A DNA stretch of 33,034 nt from Planctomycetota bacterium (GTDB lineage: Bacteria > Planctomycetota > UBA1135): positions 1-33,034 of the forward strand of contig JAPKEZ010000005.1 of the NCBI GenBank assembly GCA_028821845.1. Direction: 5' to 3'. Under the pieces are notes generated by a model that was given only the letters and a program-made list of their open reading frames with translations, was not told the origin of the DNA and ran no database searches. This document shows, piece by piece, positions 3,241 through 20,382 of the stretch. The translations under genes and the position numbers were made by a program. How positions within the stretch are numbered: the stretch's first letter is position 1; every line of letters starts with the position of its first letter.

Positions 3241-4095
3241 ATGGAAGCAACAGACCGTAGATTACTTCAACTTGGGCATAGTCCAGATCCAGATGACGCC
3301 TTTATGCATTATGCCTTGGCCGCTGACAAGCTAGACGTGGGCGACCTTGACTTTGAGCACAAACTTGAAGACATCGAAACGCTCAACAAGCGCGCGGTGC
3401 ACGGTGAATATGAAATCACTGCGGTTTCAATTCACGGATACGCTTTTGTCGCTGATAAGTACTGTTTGCTTAACCACGGTGCATCGATGGGCGAAGGGTA
3501 TGGTCCACGTATTGTTGCCCGAGAAGAAATGAAAATCGAAGACTTGCAAAAGGGCAAGGGTAAGCGCATTGCAATACCCGGAGAATGGACATCAGCGCAC
3601 TTGGCTACGCAAATGTACATCGGAGAATACGATTACGGTTTGGTAGAATTTGATCAAATACCTGATGCTGTTGAAAGGGGAGACTACGATGCCGGCGTGT
3701 TGATTCACGAAGGGCAACTTACTTTTCAAGATCAAGGCTTGGTGTTGCTACGCGACTTAGGAGAATGGTGGCAAACCGAAAACGATGGCTTGCCGTTACC
3801 CCTTGGTGGTAACACAGTGCGCCGCGACTTGGGCGACTTAATTCCTCGCGTTTCGCAGTTGCTTCAAGACAGCATTCGTTATGGTCTCGAACACCGCGTT
3901 GAAGCCGTTGAATATGCACTGCAGTGGGGTCGTGACTTGAGCGTTGAACAAGCCGATGAATTTATCGGCATGTACGTTAACGAACGCACTTTAGATTATG
4001 GCGACGACGGTCGCCTAGCAGTAAAACTGTTTTTAGAGAAAGCGCACAAGATGGGAATTATCCCAGAAATGCCGCCGCTTGACTTTCAGCGCTAA
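3241..4095 (+). CDS. MqnA/MqnD-like periplasmic-binding-fold protein (menaquinone futalosine-pathway family)
   Basis: LGHSPDPDDAFMHYALAADKLD, IAIPGEWTSAHLATQMY and DAGVLIHEGQLTF resemble MqnD (1,4-dihydroxy-6-naphthoate synthase). Start taken at ATG 3241 rather than 3175, because the upstream extension lacks family features. Confidence 0.7.
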   Translation: MEATDRRLLQLGHSPDPDDAFMHYALAADKLDVGDLDFEHKLEDIETLNKRAVHGEYEITAVSIHGYAFVADKYCLLNHGASMGEGYGPRIVAREEMKIEDLQKGKGKRIAIPGEWTSAHLATQMYIGEYDYGLVEFDQIPDAVERGDYDAGVLIHEGQLTFQDQGLVLLRDLGEWWQTENDGLPLPLGGNTVRRDLGDLIPRVSQLLQDSIRYGLEHRVEAVEYALQWGRDLSVEQADEFIGMYVNERTLDYGDDGRLAVKLFLEKAHKMGIIPEMPPLDFQR

Positions 4096-7000
4096 TCCGT
4101 AAGCGCAGCTTTTGCCGCTATTAAATTCGCCTTGACGGCTTTATCGTCAGGGCGCAACGCAAGCGCTGTAGTGTAGTCAGCAATGGCGCCGCTGATGTCA
4201 CCGCTAAGTTGCTTGACGTAGCCACGTCCTGAATAAGCCTCAAAGAAATAGGGGCCTTCTTTGGCAGCAAGATCGAAAGACTCTAAAGCTAGATCAAGTC
4301 GCTGCGTGTTGACGTAGCCGCGCGCCATTTGCACGTATATATATCCAACCTGGAACTCGCGAGCGGTTTCATGCATTTCGTTCTTGGTGAATGCGTATTC
4401 AAGGGACAATAAACTCGGAGAAGGTGCTTGAGTTAGCCAGCGTCCACCAAACGGAACAGATGCTTCGAGACGTTGGGCGTCATTCATGTTTAGCAACTCA
4501 AAGTCATTGATAATTACTTCAATGTCAACAGCTCCTAAGTAAAACGCCACTAGATTACCACGCCTATCAACCAAGAATGAGGAAGGAGTAGGCATAGCAA
4601 TGTCGCGTTTTGTTAAAGTTCTCTGCATAATGTCGAGTACATTAATGCACTGTGCAGAAGCTTGCGCGTGAGGAGCTGACCAGTTTGCGGGTTCTTGGTT
4701 TGAGGTGACATTTAAAGCAACCGGAATGACATTAGCTTCTAGAAAGCTCTCTTTGTTCTCGGTAATTGCCGATAATTCGACTATGCAAGGCGCGCAGGTT
4801 TCTGACCATAGGTTGACAAACAAGGCCTTCGAATTATCGCTGGCCTTGGCCGCAGTCGTGCCAGTGCCGAACAGCGTCGCTTTCTCATTGTCAGGGGCAT
4901 CAATCTTAAGCTGCGGCATCGGTATCGGGTTAGGTAACACGATGCGCGAGAAAGATGTTACTGCGGACAGACTGCCTTCTGCGATTGAGTTCTCAATCTC
5001 CGTAGCTGTTGATTGATGTACCACAACACCAGCGCCTTGGGTGATGACATAGCGCTGACCATTGCGGATGTCATCGTAATGGTCAGCTTTGCCGTTTGGC
5101 CATTTAACAATTATCTGTGATACCTTATTGTCGCTCAATCCGAAATGCAGCCATGACGATGATTGCGCTTGGTAACCACTGCCAGCGCGCCGCGTTTGCG
5201 ACAACACTGTTTGCTGTTTGTCATCGAGATGAACTTCAACGCGTGCACCTATAGCGTCAGGATTTATCGAACCTACAAGTTTTAGTTGAACGAAGCTGTT
5301 ACTAGTTTGAACTTGGTTACGCATCACGCGCAGTCTTGGAGCGGTGCGATTAGTAATTAGTAAATCTAGATTACCATCAAGGTCTAAGTCGTGAGCAACA
5401 GCACTGCGCCCGTCATCTTCGAAGTTTAGTCCACTGACTGCTGAGCCATCGGCGAATTCCCCATTACCTAAATTGATGAACATACAATTGGCCTCGTTGC
5501 CGCTCCAGGATTTACCTTGGCTGATTAACTTGTTGATTGCGCGCCAACCATTTTTGTAGTCGGCGTCATCGATTTCAGTTTCTGGTGAGAGCGACACGAC
5601 CTGCCGCCAGAAAAAACTTCACAAGTCGCCATCGTCGTCATCGTCGTTGGTGGTAAAACCATTTGGCACGAAAATGTCAAGTCGGGAATCGTTGTTGTAA
5701 TCAAAGAAAATAGAACCCCATGCCCAGCGACCCATATTGGTATTGCTGGCTTGCGACACATCCTTAAAGGTTCCGTCCCCCATGTTTTTGAAGAGAGTGT
5801 TGCCGTCGGCATGCTGTTGCATTTGCCTGCGAGTATCTTCGCTAGCCTCAGTCATGAAATGTCGCTGATAAGTAATGCGTTGACCGGCGCTTGAATACAT
5901 ATTGCTAACGTAGAGGTCTATATGCCCGTCGTTATCGTAATCTCCCCAACTTACTGCCATGCCCGCAGAAATGTCCTCAACACCAGCGCTCGCGGCTACA
6001 TCAGCGAATGTACCGTTGTCGTTACGGAACAGATTGTTGCGTCCGTAGTCGTTAGCGACATATAAATCTTGATCACCATCGTTGTCGTAATCTTCGAATG
6101 AAGCGGCGAAACTGAATCGTTTATTGTTCTGGTCGAGACCAACGTCGCTGGTAACGTCTTCGAATTGCAATTCGCCGCTGTTGCGTAGCATTATATTAGC
6201 AAGGCCATTGTTAGCATCGTTGTAAGGCTGGGGCACGGCTTGATTTTCATATGGGTTTAGGTAGCGACAAGCATATAAATCTACCAAACCGTCGTTATCG
6301 TAATCAGAAGCTGCAAGCGACGTTACTTCTGGCGCATTAATCATGCCGACAACATCGAATACACCGTGCCCGTCATTTTCGAATATTGCGACTAATCCGG
6401 GGAATGTACTCGCTAAATCTAAATCGCCGTCGTTGTCGAAATCAACGAATAAAGCGCTACGCGAGGACTCGAGGAAGTCTAGTTGGGATTTGGCAGAGTG
6501 GTCTTCGAACACCTCTGGAGCAACTTGCATTAGTAAAGTGTTGGGCAGCCCAGCTGGCTGCGGCAAATAAATATCGTCAAGTCCATCATTGTTGACGTCA
6601 GCTAGTGAGATGCCCTGATGAGATTTTGTGGATAGACCTAAGGCCGAAGAGATATGCTTTTGCCAGTAGTTTAAACTTGGAGCGAGCATGCCATCGTAAT
6701 TGACAAGCTTCAAACTGTCCTGCGAAACATCTTTAAAGAGAGCATCGGGACTAGTGAGTTGTTCGCAGTCAATCACAGCCACAGTGTGAATAGTTAATGA
6801 TGGAGAAGCAGTGAAAGTAACCAGCAAGTTTGCGTTTTGTTGCAAATGGCGCATGTCATTTTCAATGTGGCTAAGCATGATTACTTTAGTCGTATAACCC
6901 GTTTCGGTTTTTGCCACACCAACTATTTTATATTTAGTATGCCACGAGCTATCGCTAAAGGAAAACTTTGCCGTCGCAGAATCGGCGCGCTCAATGATTA

Positions 7001-7172
7001 CATGGCCATCACTAAAAGCGATTTCAAACTTAGCGTCGATAGTGCCGCTGCCACAGTCTTTTAAAATAGTACCTGCCTGTCTGGAGATGTCCTCGAATTG
7101 CTCAATACCTAATTGCTGCTGGCTAGTAGCGCAACCAATAATCGCAATTAGGCATGAAGCAATTATCATCAA
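4092..7172 (-). CDS. Candidate selenoprotein: exported lipoprotein with FG-GAP/VCBS repeats, ASPIC/UnbV domain, thioredoxin-like domain and TPRs; in-frame UGA (Sec) at 5621-5619
   Basis: ORFs 5619-7172 and 4092-5597 lie in the same frame, separated by one TGA: ...GFTTNDDDDDGDL-U-SFFWRQVVSLSPETE.... The N-terminal part has a signal peptide with lipobox IIGC and repeats such as DYDNDGDQDLYVAND. The C-terminal part has ASPIC/UnbV (GARVEVHLDD...VKWPNGKADHYDDI), thioredoxin NLWSETCAPCIVEL and TPRs. The likely start is ATG 7169, overlapping the aldehyde dehydrogenase TGA, which gives about 1025 aa with Sec at residue 517. Confidence 0.85.
5579..5621 (-). promoter_or_regulatory. Putative bacterial SECIS element immediately downstream of the in-frame UGA
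   Basis: RNA (minus strand): UGA-AGUUU-UUUCUGG-CGGCA-GGUCG-UGUCG-CUCUCA-CCAGAAA. Outer 7-bp stem UUUCUGG/CCAGAAA, inner 5-bp stem CGGCA/UGUCG (one G-U), 6-nt 3' bulge, apical loop GGUCG starting 17 nt after the UGA. The loop context GCAGGUC is the same as in the E. coli fdhF SECIS as I recall it. Confidence 0.8.
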
Positions 7173-13520: not shown

Positions 13521-16500
13521 TTATTGTACAGGAATTATTGGCGAAGTGTTCCATTCAGGTGGGGCAGGAGTCGGTACCCAAAGTGGAAATGCCGGAGGAA
13601 CAAAAAGTTCACCATCAGTTATCCACGCAATTATTTTCGACCATCTGCGATGGCGAATTTTCAAATCTTCAATTGGACCATAAACCTGTTGTTCAATGAA
13701 GAGGTCGAGTATGTCCTTAACCAGAGGCAGACGAGTAATAAAACTTAAAGTGCGCATAGTGATTTTTAGATTGACCATAGCGTCCATAGTTGCCGAGCCA
13801 TCGCCAATGAATTCAAAAGCAGGGCCGTCTAGCGAGATGCCTGTAACTGTTATTTTCCCATTTCCGTTGAGCTTCAAGTCTATCTTTCCATTCTCAATAA
13901 CAGGTGCCGGAAAACCAGAAACTTGCCAGATGCTTTTCAAAACAGGAACCGAGCCAAGCATCGCATCTTTTAGATGCAGGTTGACATCACCAGTGCAATC
14001 AATCGGTGAGGTGCTTGTGCTATTGAGGTCTATTTTGCCTCCCAATCTGCCGGAAAGTTCACCGCTAATGTATAGTTCATTACGCATCTGAGCAAGGTCG
14101 ATGTCTCCAAGCGCTATCTCGATAGCGTAAGGTGGACTGTTCTCGGAGAAAAAGGAAAACCCGCCAGCTATTTCACCTCCTAGCAAACTCGCCTTAAGCT
14201 TATCAACGCGGATTCCTTCGTCGGTGATGACTAGGATTCCTTCGTCTGTCGTTTGAATGCCGTTCACAGTCAGTTGCCCCAGTCGGACGGTGCCACCAGT
14301 AATTGACATCGACGCCGCGAAGTCAGTAGCTGAACTCCATGAGGCCTCTTTGATATTGAACGTCGCAGAGCCGTCATTCAGCGGAATGCCCTCGCTAACC
14401 TGCAAATCAGATATTTCAAAGTCTCCTGTGAATTCAGAACTTATGCGGCCGTCGGCATGCAGGTCCGCGATAGCGTGAATGCTTTCGGCTTTGAGCTTGC
14501 CCTCGACACCGAGCTCTTGCAAAGTAGTAGCAAGCTTCGAACCGGCAAGTGCTGTGAGGTCAGAGGTTAATTCGATGCCACGTTGTGACTCAAGGTCGGC
14601 TTCGACATGCAGGCGATCGCTAAGTATTTTGCCGTCGAGGTTGTAAACCCTTAGCGCAGAATTCTTTGACGACAGTTGGAGCTTATCCGATTGTATTTTA
14701 TTTGGCTCTAAATTTACCGTGCCATTAATTTTGTAGGAATCTTCGCGATTGCCTTTTACACTGACGGCAAGCGGGCTCATGATGATCTCACTCACAAACA
14801 GTTGAGGTTGCAATGGGTTGAAACTCACAAAGCCATCAATGGCACCATCCCAATCTAGGTGTTCTCCCCAGGTTTGCTGCTTAGCAAATTGCTGGCTACC
14901 AAGGATTAAGTCATTGCTTAGCGGTAATTGTTTCAGGTTCGCCGTGGCATAGTTAAGCGCGGAATCGTTGGATAGGTTCCCGCATCCACGAATTGTTCCA
15001 TCATCAACCTTAGTCTCGATTCCACCAAAGTGGAAGTTGAATCTCTCACCCGCGGCGTACATTTGCGCATTATTCGTAGTCATGTTGTCAAGTGAAATGC
15101 CAAGCTGTGGCCAATTGACAGTTGCTCCATTGGCATACAACTGGGCGTTAATCTGGGGATCTGAAGTCATGTCTGGCCACAACAACTCCAGACGATATTT
15201 GAAGTCGCCGTCGATAGGGAAGCTTACCAAACCAGCAGGAATCGGTAAATTACTCGACATAATCTCAGCCTCAGCAGAATCAGGATGCCATCCACTGCCG
15301 TTAGCACCAACACTTAATTGCAAGTTTTCACCGTTAGTGTAGTTATGCGTTTTGCCGCTAATTTGTAGTTTTGACTTTGCAGCAATCGCCGTCGCCTCGA
15401 AACTAGTGGTGTTCTCGGTGATAGCGATATGAGCTTTTTCAATTTGTACGCTCATTGGCAAAAGTTTCGGTTGCGCAACACAATCGAAGAGATCTATAGA
15501 CACAAAGTAATCGAAGTTATCGTCGTTGTCGGTGAACAATCGCACATGTGCGTTAGCACGACCACCGTGGGGACTACCGAGATAGCTGATTAGGTCGGTT
15601 ATTTCTGGGTTGCCACTTAGATTGTCGAAGACAGTCTGCTCGAGAGAGATATCGTTTATTGCGATTGAGATATCGATAGTAGTTGTCCGCGGTCGGAAGT
15701 CGACTTCACCGTTTATCTTTACCTCACCATTGGCATGTTCACCTAAAGTGTGAAAAACCAGCGCCTCTTCGGTGATTGCTATATAACCACTATTCAGTTG
15801 TGAAGCGTACGGAAATGGGAACGCCGCTTCGCTTGTAGTAACGAATCCTTGATAAGCCAGATCTAGTTCGTTTGGCTTAATCGCAATAGCCCAATCAAAT
15901 CTGTCTCCATGAATGCTTGTTAGCGCTTGCGCATCCACAGTGCCCGCTGCCTGAGTGGCGTCTAGAAACGAAGGTATCTCTGGTTCTATTCTGCCCAACC
16001 ACTGCCGTAATTCTTGGTTCACGACAACAGCTTTAATCGAATGCTCAATTTGCAAATCGAGACCTTCGTGGTCGTCAAAGCTTAAAACCCCAGTGCTCTG
16101 AACGGCGCTGTCAAAAAGGTCAGTAGTAGCGTTTATGTTCAGCCCGGTCGCGGAGGATCCAGAAACATTAATGTACGACTGGTCAAAGCTAAGTGACGGC
16201 GATGCCAGTAGGGGTTTATCCAAATAGATATTGCTTGCAAGGCGCCAACTATATTCACCTTGCCAATCACCAGCGGCATTAAAGTCTGCTTCAATTGTTC
16301 CATTGTCAAATGTTAAATGGGCTGTTTCGAAAACTGACCAATCATTAACTAGTTTCCCACTTACATTCACTGAGACTTCCCAGTCGCTGTTTGCGTTGTT
16401 GGTATGCAACCTTGCCTGCAAATCGCCAACAGTAGGTTTTAAACATTTACTGCTAATCTCGAAACTACCTACATCTCCATCGAGGGCGCCAACAACCGTT

Positions 16501-16967
16501 AATCCCTTCAATTCTATGAGCTCACTTTGCGTGTCAATGTATCGTACATCAACATTTTGAATGTCAAGTTTTAGTGTGGACAAGCCACGATTATCCATTC
16601 GTAGTGCTTCAAGCGCTTCTTGCAGTTTAGGCGTAATAACGGCCTGCGCTGAATGTGCTTTAATATAAGTCGGTAGCAGGTGAGTATCGCGATGTGGGCT
16701 TACGCCAATGGAGACCTGCACGTTTTTGGCACTTAGTGCTTGGTTGTCATTGAAGTTGACAATAATTCCACTTGCGTCTAGTTGCCCGTTACTCCAGCAG
16801 TAGCTAACATCGCCAGAAATCATCTCAAGTTCAGGAGAAATTCCGCTCAGCACCGAGTTGATTACGGCATGCGGGATTCTGATGCTAAAGAAAGCGCTTG
16901 TCGCCACCAACACACTCGCAACTAGCGAAATACGGGAAAAGCGACTAAGACTTATAAGCATGTTCAA
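13521..16967 (-). CDS. Large AsmA/YdbH-like (intermembrane lipid transport-type) envelope protein
   Basis: 1148 aa, N-terminal TM segment, long beta-rich repeats, C-terminal LGGEIAGGFSFFSENSPPYAIEIALGDIDLAQM...GRLGGKIDL resembling YdbH. Confidence 0.65.
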   Translation of the reverse strand: MNMLISLSRFSRISLVASVLVATSAFFSIRIPHAVINSVLSGISPELEMISGDVSYCWSNGQLDASGIIVNFNDNQALSAKNVQVSIGVSPHRDTHLLPTYIKAHSAQAVITPKLQEALEALRMDNRGLSTLKLDIQNVDVRYIDTQSELIELKGLTVVGALDGDVGSFEISSKCLKPTVGDLQARLHTNNANSDWEVSVNVSGKLVNDWSVFETAHLTFDNGTIEADFNAAGDWQGEYSWRLASNIYLDKPLLASPSLSFDQSYINVSGSSATGLNINATTDLFDSAVQSTGVLSFDDHEGLDLQIEHSIKAVVVNQELRQWLGRIEPEIPSFLDATQAAGTVDAQALTSIHGDRFDWAIAIKPNELDLAYQGFVTTSEAAFPFPYASQLNSGYIAITEEALVFHTLGEHANGEVKINGEVDFRPRTTTIDISIAINDISLEQTVFDNLSGNPEITDLISYLGSPHGGRANAHVRLFTDNDDNFDYFVSIDLFDCVAQPKLLPMSVQIEKAHIAITENTTSFEATAIAAKSKLQISGKTHNYTNGENLQLSVGANGSGWHPDSAEAEIMSSNLPIPAGLVSFPIDGDFKYRLELLWPDMTSDPQINAQLYANGATVNWPQLGISLDNMTTNNAQMYAAGERFNFHFGGIETKVDDGTIRGCGNLSNDSALNYATANLKQLPLSNDLILGSQQFAKQQTWGEHLDWDGAIDGFVSFNPLQPQLFVSEIIMSPLAVSVKGNREDSYKINGTVNLEPNKIQSDKLQLSSKNSALRVYNLDGKILSDRLHVEADLESQRGIELTSDLTALAGSKLATTLQELGVEGKLKAESIHAIADLHADGRISSEFTGDFEISDLQVSEGIPLNDGSATFNIKEASWSSATDFAASMSITGGTVRLGQLTVNGIQTTDEGILVITDEGIRVDKLKASLLGGEIAGGFSFFSENSPPYAIEIALGDIDLAQMRNELYISGELSGRLGGKIDLNSTSTSPIDCTGDVNLHLKDAMLGSVPVLKSIWQVSGFPAPVIENGKIDLKLNGNGKITVTGISLDGPAFEFIGDGSATMDAMVNLKITMRTLSFITRLPLVKDILDLFIEQQVYGPIEDLKIRHRRWSKIIAWITDGELFVPPAFPLWVPTPAPPEWNTSPIIPVQ

Positions 16968-18108
16968 GTGGTTTCTGCGTGACGCTGCTGTCTACATAGC
17001 GTCGAGAAACGCGTGACCCAATACGGCAACAGATCTCATAGGCGATGGTGTCGGCCTGGTCGGCTACATCTTGAGCAGTGATATGCTCGTTACCATCGGT
17101 GCCAATAATTGTAACCATATCGCCAATTCCAGCATCTTTAACGTGACTAACGTCAATAGTGCAGTAGTCCATTGAAACATGGCCAATAATTGGACAGCGT
17201 TTACCACGCACCAACACCTGCGAATTGCCGCTCAAGCCAAGACGGAAGGGTACGCCATCGTTGTATCCAATGGGGATAGTTGCAATACGGCAAGCTGTGT
17301 GAGAAACCCAAGTTGAATCATATCCAACGGGTGTATTGGCGGGCACGTCTTTAAAGAAAGCAATCTGGGTGCGCAACGATAACACCGGCCGCAATTGATG
17401 TTGTGCCAGGTTAGACGGCAGCATACCGAACATTGCGATTCCGGTGCGCACTGCGTCACCAAGTGGCGTGACGTTAGTGAACAGGGCAGCAGAGTTGGCG
17501 ATGTGACAAGTGAACTTGGCGTCTGGCAGCGAACATCTAATTTCATCAATGGCTTGCAAGAACAACATGTTTTGTTCTTCAGTGAACGAAGCATTGCTGC
17601 CAGAACTGCTCGCAAAGTGACTCATCACACCGAGCAATTCAAGCAGCGGATTGTTGCGCAAGGCTTTGATGATTCGTGAAATTGCTTCTGGGCGAATACC
17701 AAGGCGCCCCATGCCGGTGTCAATTTTCAAGTGCACCCCAAGCTTTTTATTACGCGCTTTGGCGATGGCCCCAAGTTCTTGGATGCGCACTTCAGAATGC
17801 ACCCCAACCTCAATATCGTATTCTAGAATGGACGCCATTTCTGAATCAATCGCGGTGCCTAAAATCAGTAGTCGCGTATGAATGCCCGCATTACGCAATT
17901 GCAACGCCTCGCTGCTGTCACCTACGCCAATCAGAGGCACATTTAGCTCTTGGCAAATTCGCGCACATTCAATCGCACCATGGCCATACGCATTTGCTTT
18001 GAGCACCGGCCACAGCGCCGCTACATCTGCTTTGTTTTGACAAATTAGCAAATTTTGGCGGAGAGCGTTCAGATCAATCTCAGCCCAGGCGCGGTCTGTA
18101 GGAGACAT
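16945..18108 (-). CDS. alr: Alanine racemase
   Basis: AEIDLNALRQNL, WPVLKANAYGHGA (PLP Lys), KIDTGMGRLGI, GYDSTWVS and IGHVSMDYCTIDV. Confidence 0.95.
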   Translation of the reverse strand: MSPTDRAWAEIDLNALRQNLLICQNKADVAALWPVLKANAYGHGAIECARICQELNVPLIGVGDSSEALQLRNAGIHTRLLILGTAIDSEMASILEYDIEVGVHSEVRIQELGAIAKARNKKLGVHLKIDTGMGRLGIRPEAISRIIKALRNNPLLELLGVMSHFASSSGSNASFTEEQNMLFLQAIDEIRCSLPDAKFTCHIANSAALFTNVTPLGDAVRTGIAMFGMLPSNLAQHQLRPVLSLRTQIAFFKDVPANTPVGYDSTWVSHTACRIATIPIGYNDGVPFRLGLSGNSQVLVRGKRCPIIGHVSMDYCTIDVSHVKDAGIGDMVTIIGTDGNEHITAQDVADQADTIAYEICCRIGSRVSRRYVDSSVTQKPLEHAYKS

Positions 18109-18198: not shown

Positions 18199-19359
18199 TT
18201 ATCGGCGAATACCGAGCAAGCCGTTGCGCCGCAACACCTGATTAGTAAGGCCTTGTAGCTCGGTTACGCAATTATCGATAGCGAATTTATTTGCCTCATA
18301 ACCGTCAGGCAGCGGAAGCTTGAGCTGCGGCTGAATAATGGCACGCAGATCTTTGGCTATAGCTGCCGTAAATTTGTCGCGGCTAGGGTGCAATTTTAAA
18401 TAATCAGCCATGCGTTGCGGATCAAATTGCAGCATGATCCAGGCATTGACTAAATTGGCGCGTATGCCTTTGTAAATAATATTAATTGTCGCGTTAGGAT
18501 TAAGTTGTAACTGAGCCAAGGTTTGTCGCAGCAGTTGGTATTCGCGCCATTTATCAAAATATTCGCTAATGCGCTGGTAGAGTTTGATGTGATATCGATC
18601 GTCGATTGGCGACTCAATACGGTGCTCGTCCAAGATATTTCTTAGAAAAGCTACCCCCTCGACATCAGAAATGCCTATTTCCGTTTCTGCATTCCAGATA
18701 TCGAATAGCCGAACACCGCTGTAGACATAGCCGTTGCGATCGCGGTAAGTATGAGCAAAATAATCAGCACTTTTCGCCATATCACCATCGCCGTCAAGTA
18801 CGCCTTCGCAGCGCGCACTGAATTCACTTATTTCGCCTAAAGACCCTTTGGACAAAGCACTTAGGGCCTTCCCCCAACTTTTTACTCCGTGGGTTACCAA
18901 GCTTTGTGTGGCATAATCGTAGCGTGTTTGCCCATCTTCATTCGGCACACCATCAGGCAGAGAGCGCGCGCCAATTTTTTTCCATTTAGAAGATGATGGC
19001 AGCAGTTCTTTGTATTTGAGCTTTAGCTTTGGAGCGTACTGCTCGTGGTCAAAAACATAAACGCGATGCACAGCTTGCCATTCAATCTCTTTGTATTCGA
19101 GCTGCATTAATTCAGCTGTCCGATGCAACACTACGTTATCCGAAAGAAGCAATTCGTTCTTGAGTTCAGTGACAATTTCTAGCTGTTCTGTTTCGCTGAG
19201 TTGTGAAAAACGGCGCTCAACCGCATCACCGCTTTGGGAGGAAATCAGAGCAAAGCATGAAAAGAGTAGTGACAGTGGCATTTGTGCAAACATCATAATA
19301 AAATATATTCGATTAAAAAGCACAAAAATCGTTGAATTATGGATACGCGTTATGCACAA
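18199..19359 (-). CDS. Secreted hypothetical protein
   Basis: Single long ORF; start perhaps at 19296 (MMFAQMPLSLLFSCFALISS, signal-like). No family recognised. Confidence 0.65.
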   Translation of the reverse strand: MCITRIHNSTIFVLFNRIYFIMMFAQMPLSLLFSCFALISSQSGDAVERRFSQLSETEQLEIVTELKNELLLSDNVVLHRTAELMQLEYKEIEWQAVHRVYVFDHEQYAPKLKLKYKELLPSSSKWKKIGARSLPDGVPNEDGQTRYDYATQSLVTHGVKSWGKALSALSKGSLGEISEFSARCEGVLDGDGDMAKSADYFAHTYRDRNGYVYSGVRLFDIWNAETEIGISDVEGVAFLRNILDEHRIESPIDDRYHIKLYQRISEYFDKWREYQLLRQTLAQLQLNPNATINIIYKGIRANLVNAWIMLQFDPQRMADYLKLHPSRDKFTAAIAKDLRAIIQPQLKLPLPDGYEANKFAIDNCVTELQGLTNQVLRRNGLLGIRR

Positions 19360-19437
19360 TCTGTTTCCTTGAAAAGGCGTTAATACCTTTCAATTACCCC
19401 GTTCCTACTCATTTGAGTAACAACCCACTTTAATACC

Positions 19438-19746
19438 ATGGCTGCTAAAAAGAAAGCAACTAAGAAAAAGGCCGCTCCTAAGAAGAAGGCCGCTCCAAAG
19501 AAGAAAGCTGCTAAGAAGCCTGCAAAGAAGGCTGCTAAGAAGAAAGCTGCTAAGAAGAAGTCTTCAAAGAAGGCTGCTCTTGACATGATCATCTCTAAGT
19601 CACGCACTAAGAATGCTGTTGTCGACTGTAACGTTTCTGGAGAGTTCTACTCTGCACTAAACAAATTCGTTTACGGTGTTATTGCACAAGCAGAAGCACG
19701 CGCCCAGTCAAACGGCCGCAAAACTGTGCGCCCACAGGATCTGTAA
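19438..19746 (+). CDS. Bacterial histone-fold protein with Lys/Ala-rich N-terminal tail
   Basis: N-terminal MAAKKKATKKKAAPKKKAAPKKKAAKKPAKKAAKKKAAKKKSSKK, then IISKSRTKNAVVDCNVSGEFYSALNKFVYGVIAQAEARAQSNGRKTVRPQDL, resembling archaeal/bacterial singlet histone folds (alpha2 plus RKTVRPxDL). Confidence 0.82.
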   Translation: MAAKKKATKKKAAPKKKAAPKKKAAKKPAKKAAKKKAAKKKSSKKAALDMIISKSRTKNAVVDCNVSGEFYSALNKFVYGVIAQAEARAQSNGRKTVRPQDL

Positions 19747-19762
19747 GTAACCTCTTAAGATT

Positions 19763-19799
19763 AAGAGCGTACCTATTTATTTAGGCGCGCTCTTTTTTT
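19763..19799 (+). terminator. Rho-independent terminator between convergent histone-like gene and tsaB
   Basis: AAGAGCGTACCTA/TAGGCGCGCTCTT stem (one wobble, one mismatch), 6-nt loop, run of seven T; overlaps the tsaB 3' end. Confidence 0.85.
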
Positions 19800-20382
19800 G
19801 TTGCCTAAATGCCGGTGGGCGCAGATAGAGAGGTTCGGCCGCAAACAGGTGATTAGACAGCGCATCAGGGTTTTTACATATAAACTCTATTGCAAAGCGA
19901 AGGACGTCTTCAGCACAGGTGTCTGGAGACGAGGATTCACGCGTGTTGTCCCAGTCAGCTTGTTCTATGATATGCGGTTGTTGGTTGCAGACTAGTTTTT
20001 GTTTTTCAATACAATACTCGGCGTGGTAATATTGTTGGCGATATGCGTCTAAAATAATTGTAAGTGGCTGCTGCTTTGCAGCTCGCCACGCCATCGCCTC
20101 GAATGAATTGATGCCATGACATTTTATTTGTAAGGAGTATGCGAACATGATTGCGGCAGAGCAAGCAATGCGCAAGCCAGTGTAAGAGCCAGGGCCAATG
20201 CCAACATAAACGGCATCAAGTTGCTTTGGCTCAAGCGACAACTCGCTAAGTATGTTTTCAATGGCGCACACAACACCGCGCCCACGTTGGTCGCTGAAGT
20301 CGTGCTGCGTAATCTCGTCGTTGCACGAGACGGCAACTGTGCAATGTGACGATGACAGCTCTAGTGCTAAAAAAATTGCCAT
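19777..20382 (-). CDS. tsaB: tRNA threonylcarbamoyladenosine biosynthesis protein TsaB
   Basis: FLALELSSSHCTVAV, VGIGPGSYTGLRIACSAA and GINSFEAMAW. Confidence 0.9.
   Translation of the reverse strand: MAIFLALELSSSHCTVAVSCNDEITQHDFSDQRGRGVVCAIENILSELSLEPKQLDAVYVGIGPGSYTGLRIACSAAIMFAYSLQIKCHGINSFEAMAWRAAKQQPLTIILDAYRQQYYHAEYCIEKQKLVCNQQPHIIEQADWDNTRESSSPDTCAEDVLRFAIEFICKNPDALSNHLFAAEPLYLRPPAFRQQKKSAPK

Follow-up and report, generated by a model that had tools for sequence, protein, structure and literature searches.

The gene at positions 19,438 to 19,746 of the window, by which we mean the whole stretch of 33,034 nucleotides analysed here, encodes a protein that we assign to the face-to-face (FtF) alpha3 histones of Planctomycetota; a homotetramer is predicted from its interface residues. 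It is a well-supported tailed FtF histone, combining a long lysine-rich tail with near-universal occurrence in the order, a conserved gene order and codon usage of ribosomal grade. The gene and the two parts of its product are as follows.

19438..19746, forward strand: FtF-type alpha3 histone gene with N-terminal Lys-rich tail (ATG to TAA, 102 aa)
19438..19581, forward strand: N-terminal tail, residues 1-48, made of K/A/P repeats and predicted to be disordered (pLDDT, charge, DNA repeats)
19582..19743, forward strand: histone fold, residues 49-102 (alignment, AlphaFold, Foldseek, signature residues)

The sequence-only reading had described an open reading frame in which a lysine-rich N-terminal tail precedes a histone segment, and this description holds for the forward-strand frame 19438-19746, with the tail at residues 1-48 and the fold at about 49-102. 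The domain ends SNGRKTVRPQDL, its C-terminus being NGRKTVRPQDL. For the full-length protein the predicted pI is 10.7 and the net charge +26.5, vs +2.8 for the core, which places nearly all of the charge in the tail. Scans of the ORF against Pfam and NCBIfam returned no family above its cut-off, so annotation pipelines are likely blind to the histone nature of the gene.

The earlier expectation of a histone fold in residues ~48-102 is borne out by structure prediction. The AlphaFold2 monomer model, computed from an alignment of 37 sequences, shows the fold over residues ~50-102, with alpha1 at 54-60, alpha2 at 68-91 and a single turn of alpha3 at 99-101; pLDDT reaches 83-96 from residue 51 onward and stays at 52-61 in residues 1-50. 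The truncated alpha3, which in FtF alpha3 histones measures 3-4 residues, and their short alpha2 are thus both present in the predicted core. In a Foldseek search of the PDB the two best matches were HTkC, with an rmsd of 1.0 A and a TM of 0.85 by target length, and HLp, with 1.2 A and 0.88; HBb structures followed. A short domain and a query that is half disordered keep the E-values modest (0.01). The same ranking emerged from the family profile, with 42.6 bits (6e-10) for HTkC, 32.9 bits (6e-7) for HLp and 16.6 bits (0.08) for HBb. Membership of the core histone family PF00125 or of the archaeal nucleosomal family PF00808 was rejected, as scores lie below the curated cut-off (14.4 bits for PF00125 vs a cut-off of 26.4) and alpha3 is truncated, not full-length.

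In PMC11390915, the hallmarks of FtF histones are R41, N45 and the RxTxxxxD residues R47, T49 and D54 of H. volcanii D4GZE0, and bacterial dimer histones are described there as devoid of the FtF R and N. The corresponding signature residues here are R88, N92, R94, T96 and D101, and the C-terminal pattern R...N.R.T....D was found in all 94 distinct family proteins. HLp of Leptospira perolatii (PDB 9QT0-9QT2), the bacterial FtF histone whose structure has been solved, builds its tetramer through R49, N53 and R55, D62 being a further FtF-defining position, and wraps ~60 bp of DNA (PMC12701072). Like the window histone, it is a bacterial, single-gene, alpha3-truncated protein whose R49/N53/R55 tetramer residues are all matched here, and both chains end just past the Asp of the RD clamp (one residue past D101 in the window protein); the folds share ~36% identity. 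HLp differs in being 63 aa long with a short disordered N-terminus vs the 48-aa Lys-rich tail here. Some of its DNA-contact residues are not retained: in an ungapped mapping, A60 falls at the position of K21 and V66 at T27. R56 lies at the position of K17. K54 and K58, possible counterparts of the DNA-binding Lys that FtF histones conserve on alpha1 (position 16 of the published HMM), are invariant in the 37-protein alignment. The archaeal HTkC of Thermococcus kodakarensis (PDB 9F2C) belongs to the same FtF class and is the best match in both sequence and fold (38% identity, rmsd 1.0 A), although it lacks a long tail and accompanies nucleosomal histones.

The first description of the gene had likened its product to Bd0055 of Bdellovibrio, which raises the question of whether the protein could act as a bacterial dimer of the Bd0055/HBb type, bending or coating DNA as a dimer. 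The two share a truncated alpha3, a short alpha2 and the RKT motif, and HBb structures come directly after the FtF proteins among fold matches; L2 indeed reads RKT, not the looser RxT of FtF histones, and RKT is common to nucleosomal and dimer histones. However, the HBb profile score is far lower than those of HTkC and HLp, and the R and N described as missing from the dimer type in PMC11390915 are present and invariant in this family. Bd0055/HBb itself is dimeric, without the R/N tetramer residues and without a long tail. Profile scores, fold and signature residues together place the protein in the FtF class rather than with the Bd0055 dimers, so that the likeness to Bd0055 has to be given up and a dimeric mode of action appears highly improbable. 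The distinct binding mode that had been proposed stands for FtF histones, where it was already shown experimentally with HLp (PMC12701072), and falls as something new.

A core search of the order found homologues in 38 of 41 genomes, with one match each. Fourteen core positions are invariant in the alignment of 37 proteins, and between this genome and the sister genome L039, the nearest named genome, core codons differ by 15 synonymous vs 4 nonsynonymous changes, which indicates that selection acts on the protein. In an even sample of the whole phylum, 132 of 295 Planctomycetota genomes gave a match. The named relatives are almost all Planctomycetota MAGs, to which the complete genomes Pla163 and Pla86 are added; further matches carry the MAG labels Krumholzibacteriota, Latescibacterota, Eisenbacteria and Deltaproteobacteria/Myxococcales. 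A few Planctomycetota genomes (G011:C43:4280-4447, G045, G092) contain two or three FtF-like histone genes, some of them weak matches, and these extra genes are possibly paralogues. The gene lies between two synteny markers.

16945..18108, reverse strand: alanine racemase gene (alr), marker on the other side of the histone gene (gene-order comparison)
19777..20382, reverse strand: tsaB-like gene, convergent neighbour (PF00814, 1.8e-21)

The order alr, hypothetical gene, histone (on the opposite strand), tsaB, glmM, ybbR is constant across the family, and the alr/tsaB/glmM arrangement is retained across much of the order. This conserved neighbourhood argues for vertical inheritance and not for mobile acquisition. 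A phage origin was likewise rejected: the gene order is chromosomal and conserved, and none of 50,697 phage records matched the histone. The hypothetical gene (18199-19296, reverse strand) encodes a 365-aa protein that adjoins the histone gene throughout the family (28-57% identity), belongs to no Pfam family and has an N-terminus that looks secreted. Beside alr, a large protein of 1148 aa (13521-16967, reverse strand) is AsmA-like by appearance and has no Pfam match.

The sequence-only reading had also proposed a monocistronic, well-expressed gene with its own strong terminator. Two further features bear on this.

19318..19437, forward strand: 5' intergenic region, well conserved with L039 (side-by-side sequences); probable, putative promoter/leader
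19763..19799, forward strand: intrinsic terminator, a hairpin and T run just past the stop (RNA folding; sister hairpin)

The RNA segment that starts at the stop codon (19744-19805) has a folding energy of -20.9 kcal/mol (z -4.1) and a T run at its end, and a matching hairpin occupies the same position in the sister genome, in agreement with a monocistronic gene that carries its own terminator. A simple consensus terminator scan did not list this hairpin, probably because its stem has an internal mismatch. A consensus scan of the 5' region gave no convincing sigma-70 site, and the ATG is not preceded by a visible Shine-Dalgarno sequence. Codon adaptation was measured against a cluster of 12 ribosomal-protein genes of the same genome, a slightly blurred reference since one or two of the 12 are not ribosomal (e.g., the first ORF, 0.60). 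The histone scores 0.84, ribosomal proteins 0.73-0.80 and other genes of the window 0.60-0.74. The tail codons are the most optimised in the window (0.89), but Lys/Ala bias inflates this value; the core alone (0.80) still stands out. High expression is thus very likely, and codon usage together with the strong terminator supports a predicted high abundance.

The tail deserves separate consideration. Residues 1-50 comprise 24 K, 16 A and 3 P. Across 93 family proteins tail length runs from 0 to 57 aa with a median of 28, the longer tails being richer in Lys, and the 48 aa of the window protein lie near the top of this range. K/A-rich tails recur in most relatives, so that the window tail is no local accident. 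Within the same family, however, the proteins of two genomes of genus g11 (L019/L058 and L023) begin MSDLIISK or MADLIISK and are tail-less; a hidden K-rich upstream frame was sought in these genomes and none was found, and the tail therefore appears to have been lost in this genus. It follows that the tail is dispensable in evolution and not needed for basic function. Its DNA is of low complexity, with repeats of 12, 15 and 18 bp, and the tail of the sister genome differs in length by repeat units, which suggests that length changes arise by slippage. We infer that composition is kept by selection while length varies.

The earlier statement that tails are usually short or missing in bacterial histones is correct for the dimer (Bd0055) type and for archaeal histones and fails for bacterial FtF histones, among which PMC11390915 describes positively charged tails as common. 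The tailed bacterial FtF histones of that work (Schwab et al. 2024) belong to the same class and include the same phylum among others (Planctomycetota and others); their tails are described as common, mostly positively charged and without conserved sequence, so that the combination of tail and FtF fold is not new, and the window tail stands at the long end as judged from the lengths sampled here. A word search of the literature for planctomycete histones with lysine-rich tails found only an unrelated chlamydial paper. The protein thus adds a good example to a known category, both the FtF type and charged tails being already known in bacteria.

We consider it very probable that the protein is a chromosomal, vertically inherited FtF alpha3 histone that would form a DNA-wrapping tetramer, with tails binding neighbouring DNA, and that would be abundant beside HU. 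Fold, signature, conservation, synteny, HU co-occurrence and codon bias come from the present data; tetramer and wrapping are extrapolated from HLp, and the role of the tail is drawn by analogy only. Two handshake dimers would join at both ends into a torus-shaped tetramer, in which R88 and N92 of one monomer would face the L2 loop and the C-terminus of the monomer opposite, and, as in HLp, ~60 bp of DNA would wrap around the basic rim of this torus. From the bead, four disordered polycationic tails of 48 residues, each of about +24, may extend and bind or neutralise neighbouring DNA, which, by comparison with H1/HupB-type tails, would raise affinity and pack the beads together. Together with HU, the histone would serve as a general nucleoid protein of high abundance. 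All 41 genomes sampled from the order contain HU, with two copies in this one, and the idea that the histone replaces HU was accordingly discarded: Leptospira has no HU, and in the window organism, which has it, the histone is not simply an HU substitute.

The closest functional parallels for the tail are HupB/HupS and the HC2/H1-like proteins, whose polycationic Lys/Ala-rich tails strengthen DNA binding, although their cores are non-homologous to the window histone (an HU fold with a C-terminal tail in HupB/HupS, no fold in HC2/H1-like proteins). HupB loses its DNA affinity when its Lys-rich tail is truncated (PMC11229371). By analogy with HupB/HupS, the most likely role of the histone tails would be to make binding stronger and to connect neighbouring DNA. 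It is tempting, albeit tentative, to go further and imagine a wrapping tetramer whose four long polycationic tails link neighbouring beads (bridging or condensates), with tail length tuned by evolution from none to ~57 residues on a near-unchanged core.

Other views of the tail have to be weighed against this reading. Since the charge resides mostly in the tail, since weak HC2 and H1-like matches exist and since composition recalls HupB, one may ask whether function resides in the tail, as an H1/HC2-like DNA-condensing polycation for which the histone fold merely serves as an oligomerisation module. We find this quite unlikely, as the core with its invariant positions is much better conserved than the variable tail and close relatives are entirely tail-less, which indicates selection mainly on the core. 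Identity as an H1/HC2-like protein (PF07382) was rejected in its own right: the window protein is unmatched, and HC2 is weakly matched by 3 of 37 members, in low-complexity sequence. The DNA repeats, the repeat-unit difference between sister genomes and the loss in one genus could alternatively reflect near-neutral low-complexity drift by codon-repeat slippage, tolerated because the tail is basic and disordered; against this unlikely explanation stand a K/R/A composition kept across many families despite length change and the optimised tail codons. Very unlikely, finally, is a tail that acts mainly as a modifiable switch, reversible lysine acetylation tuning DNA binding in a eukaryote-like manner. 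HupS and HupB are acetylated, with lowered DNA affinity in the case of HupS (PMC11229371), and the genome encodes a Hist_deacetyl-family protein; however, 9 of 14 ordinary control genomes also match this family, a search of the 85%-complete genome for Sir2 found none, and the tails show no position-by-position conservation, which leaves no fixed mark sites. The two enzyme searches therefore carry little information on tail modification.

Taken as a family, these FtF histones share one core to which tails of 0 to ~57 residues are attached, and one family even contains a tail loss. This natural series of tail lengths makes the role of bacterial histone tails testable by comparing natural variants. 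Tail-less histones (MADLIISKSKTK...) were also observed in L057, L066, L069, L072-L074, L076 and L087, with 67-70% identity to the window core; those of L076 and L087 are identical. Their hosts are labelled Krumholzibacteriota, Latescibacterota, Gemmatimonas or unclassified bacteria, so that FtF histones would occur in phyla absent from the main bacterial lists of the cited papers. Elsewhere in the window, on the reverse strand at 4092-7172, an FG-GAP/UnbV-like repeat protein is apparently split into the frames 5619-7172 and 4092-5597, which suggests that a frameshift, or else an error of assembly, lies near 5600.
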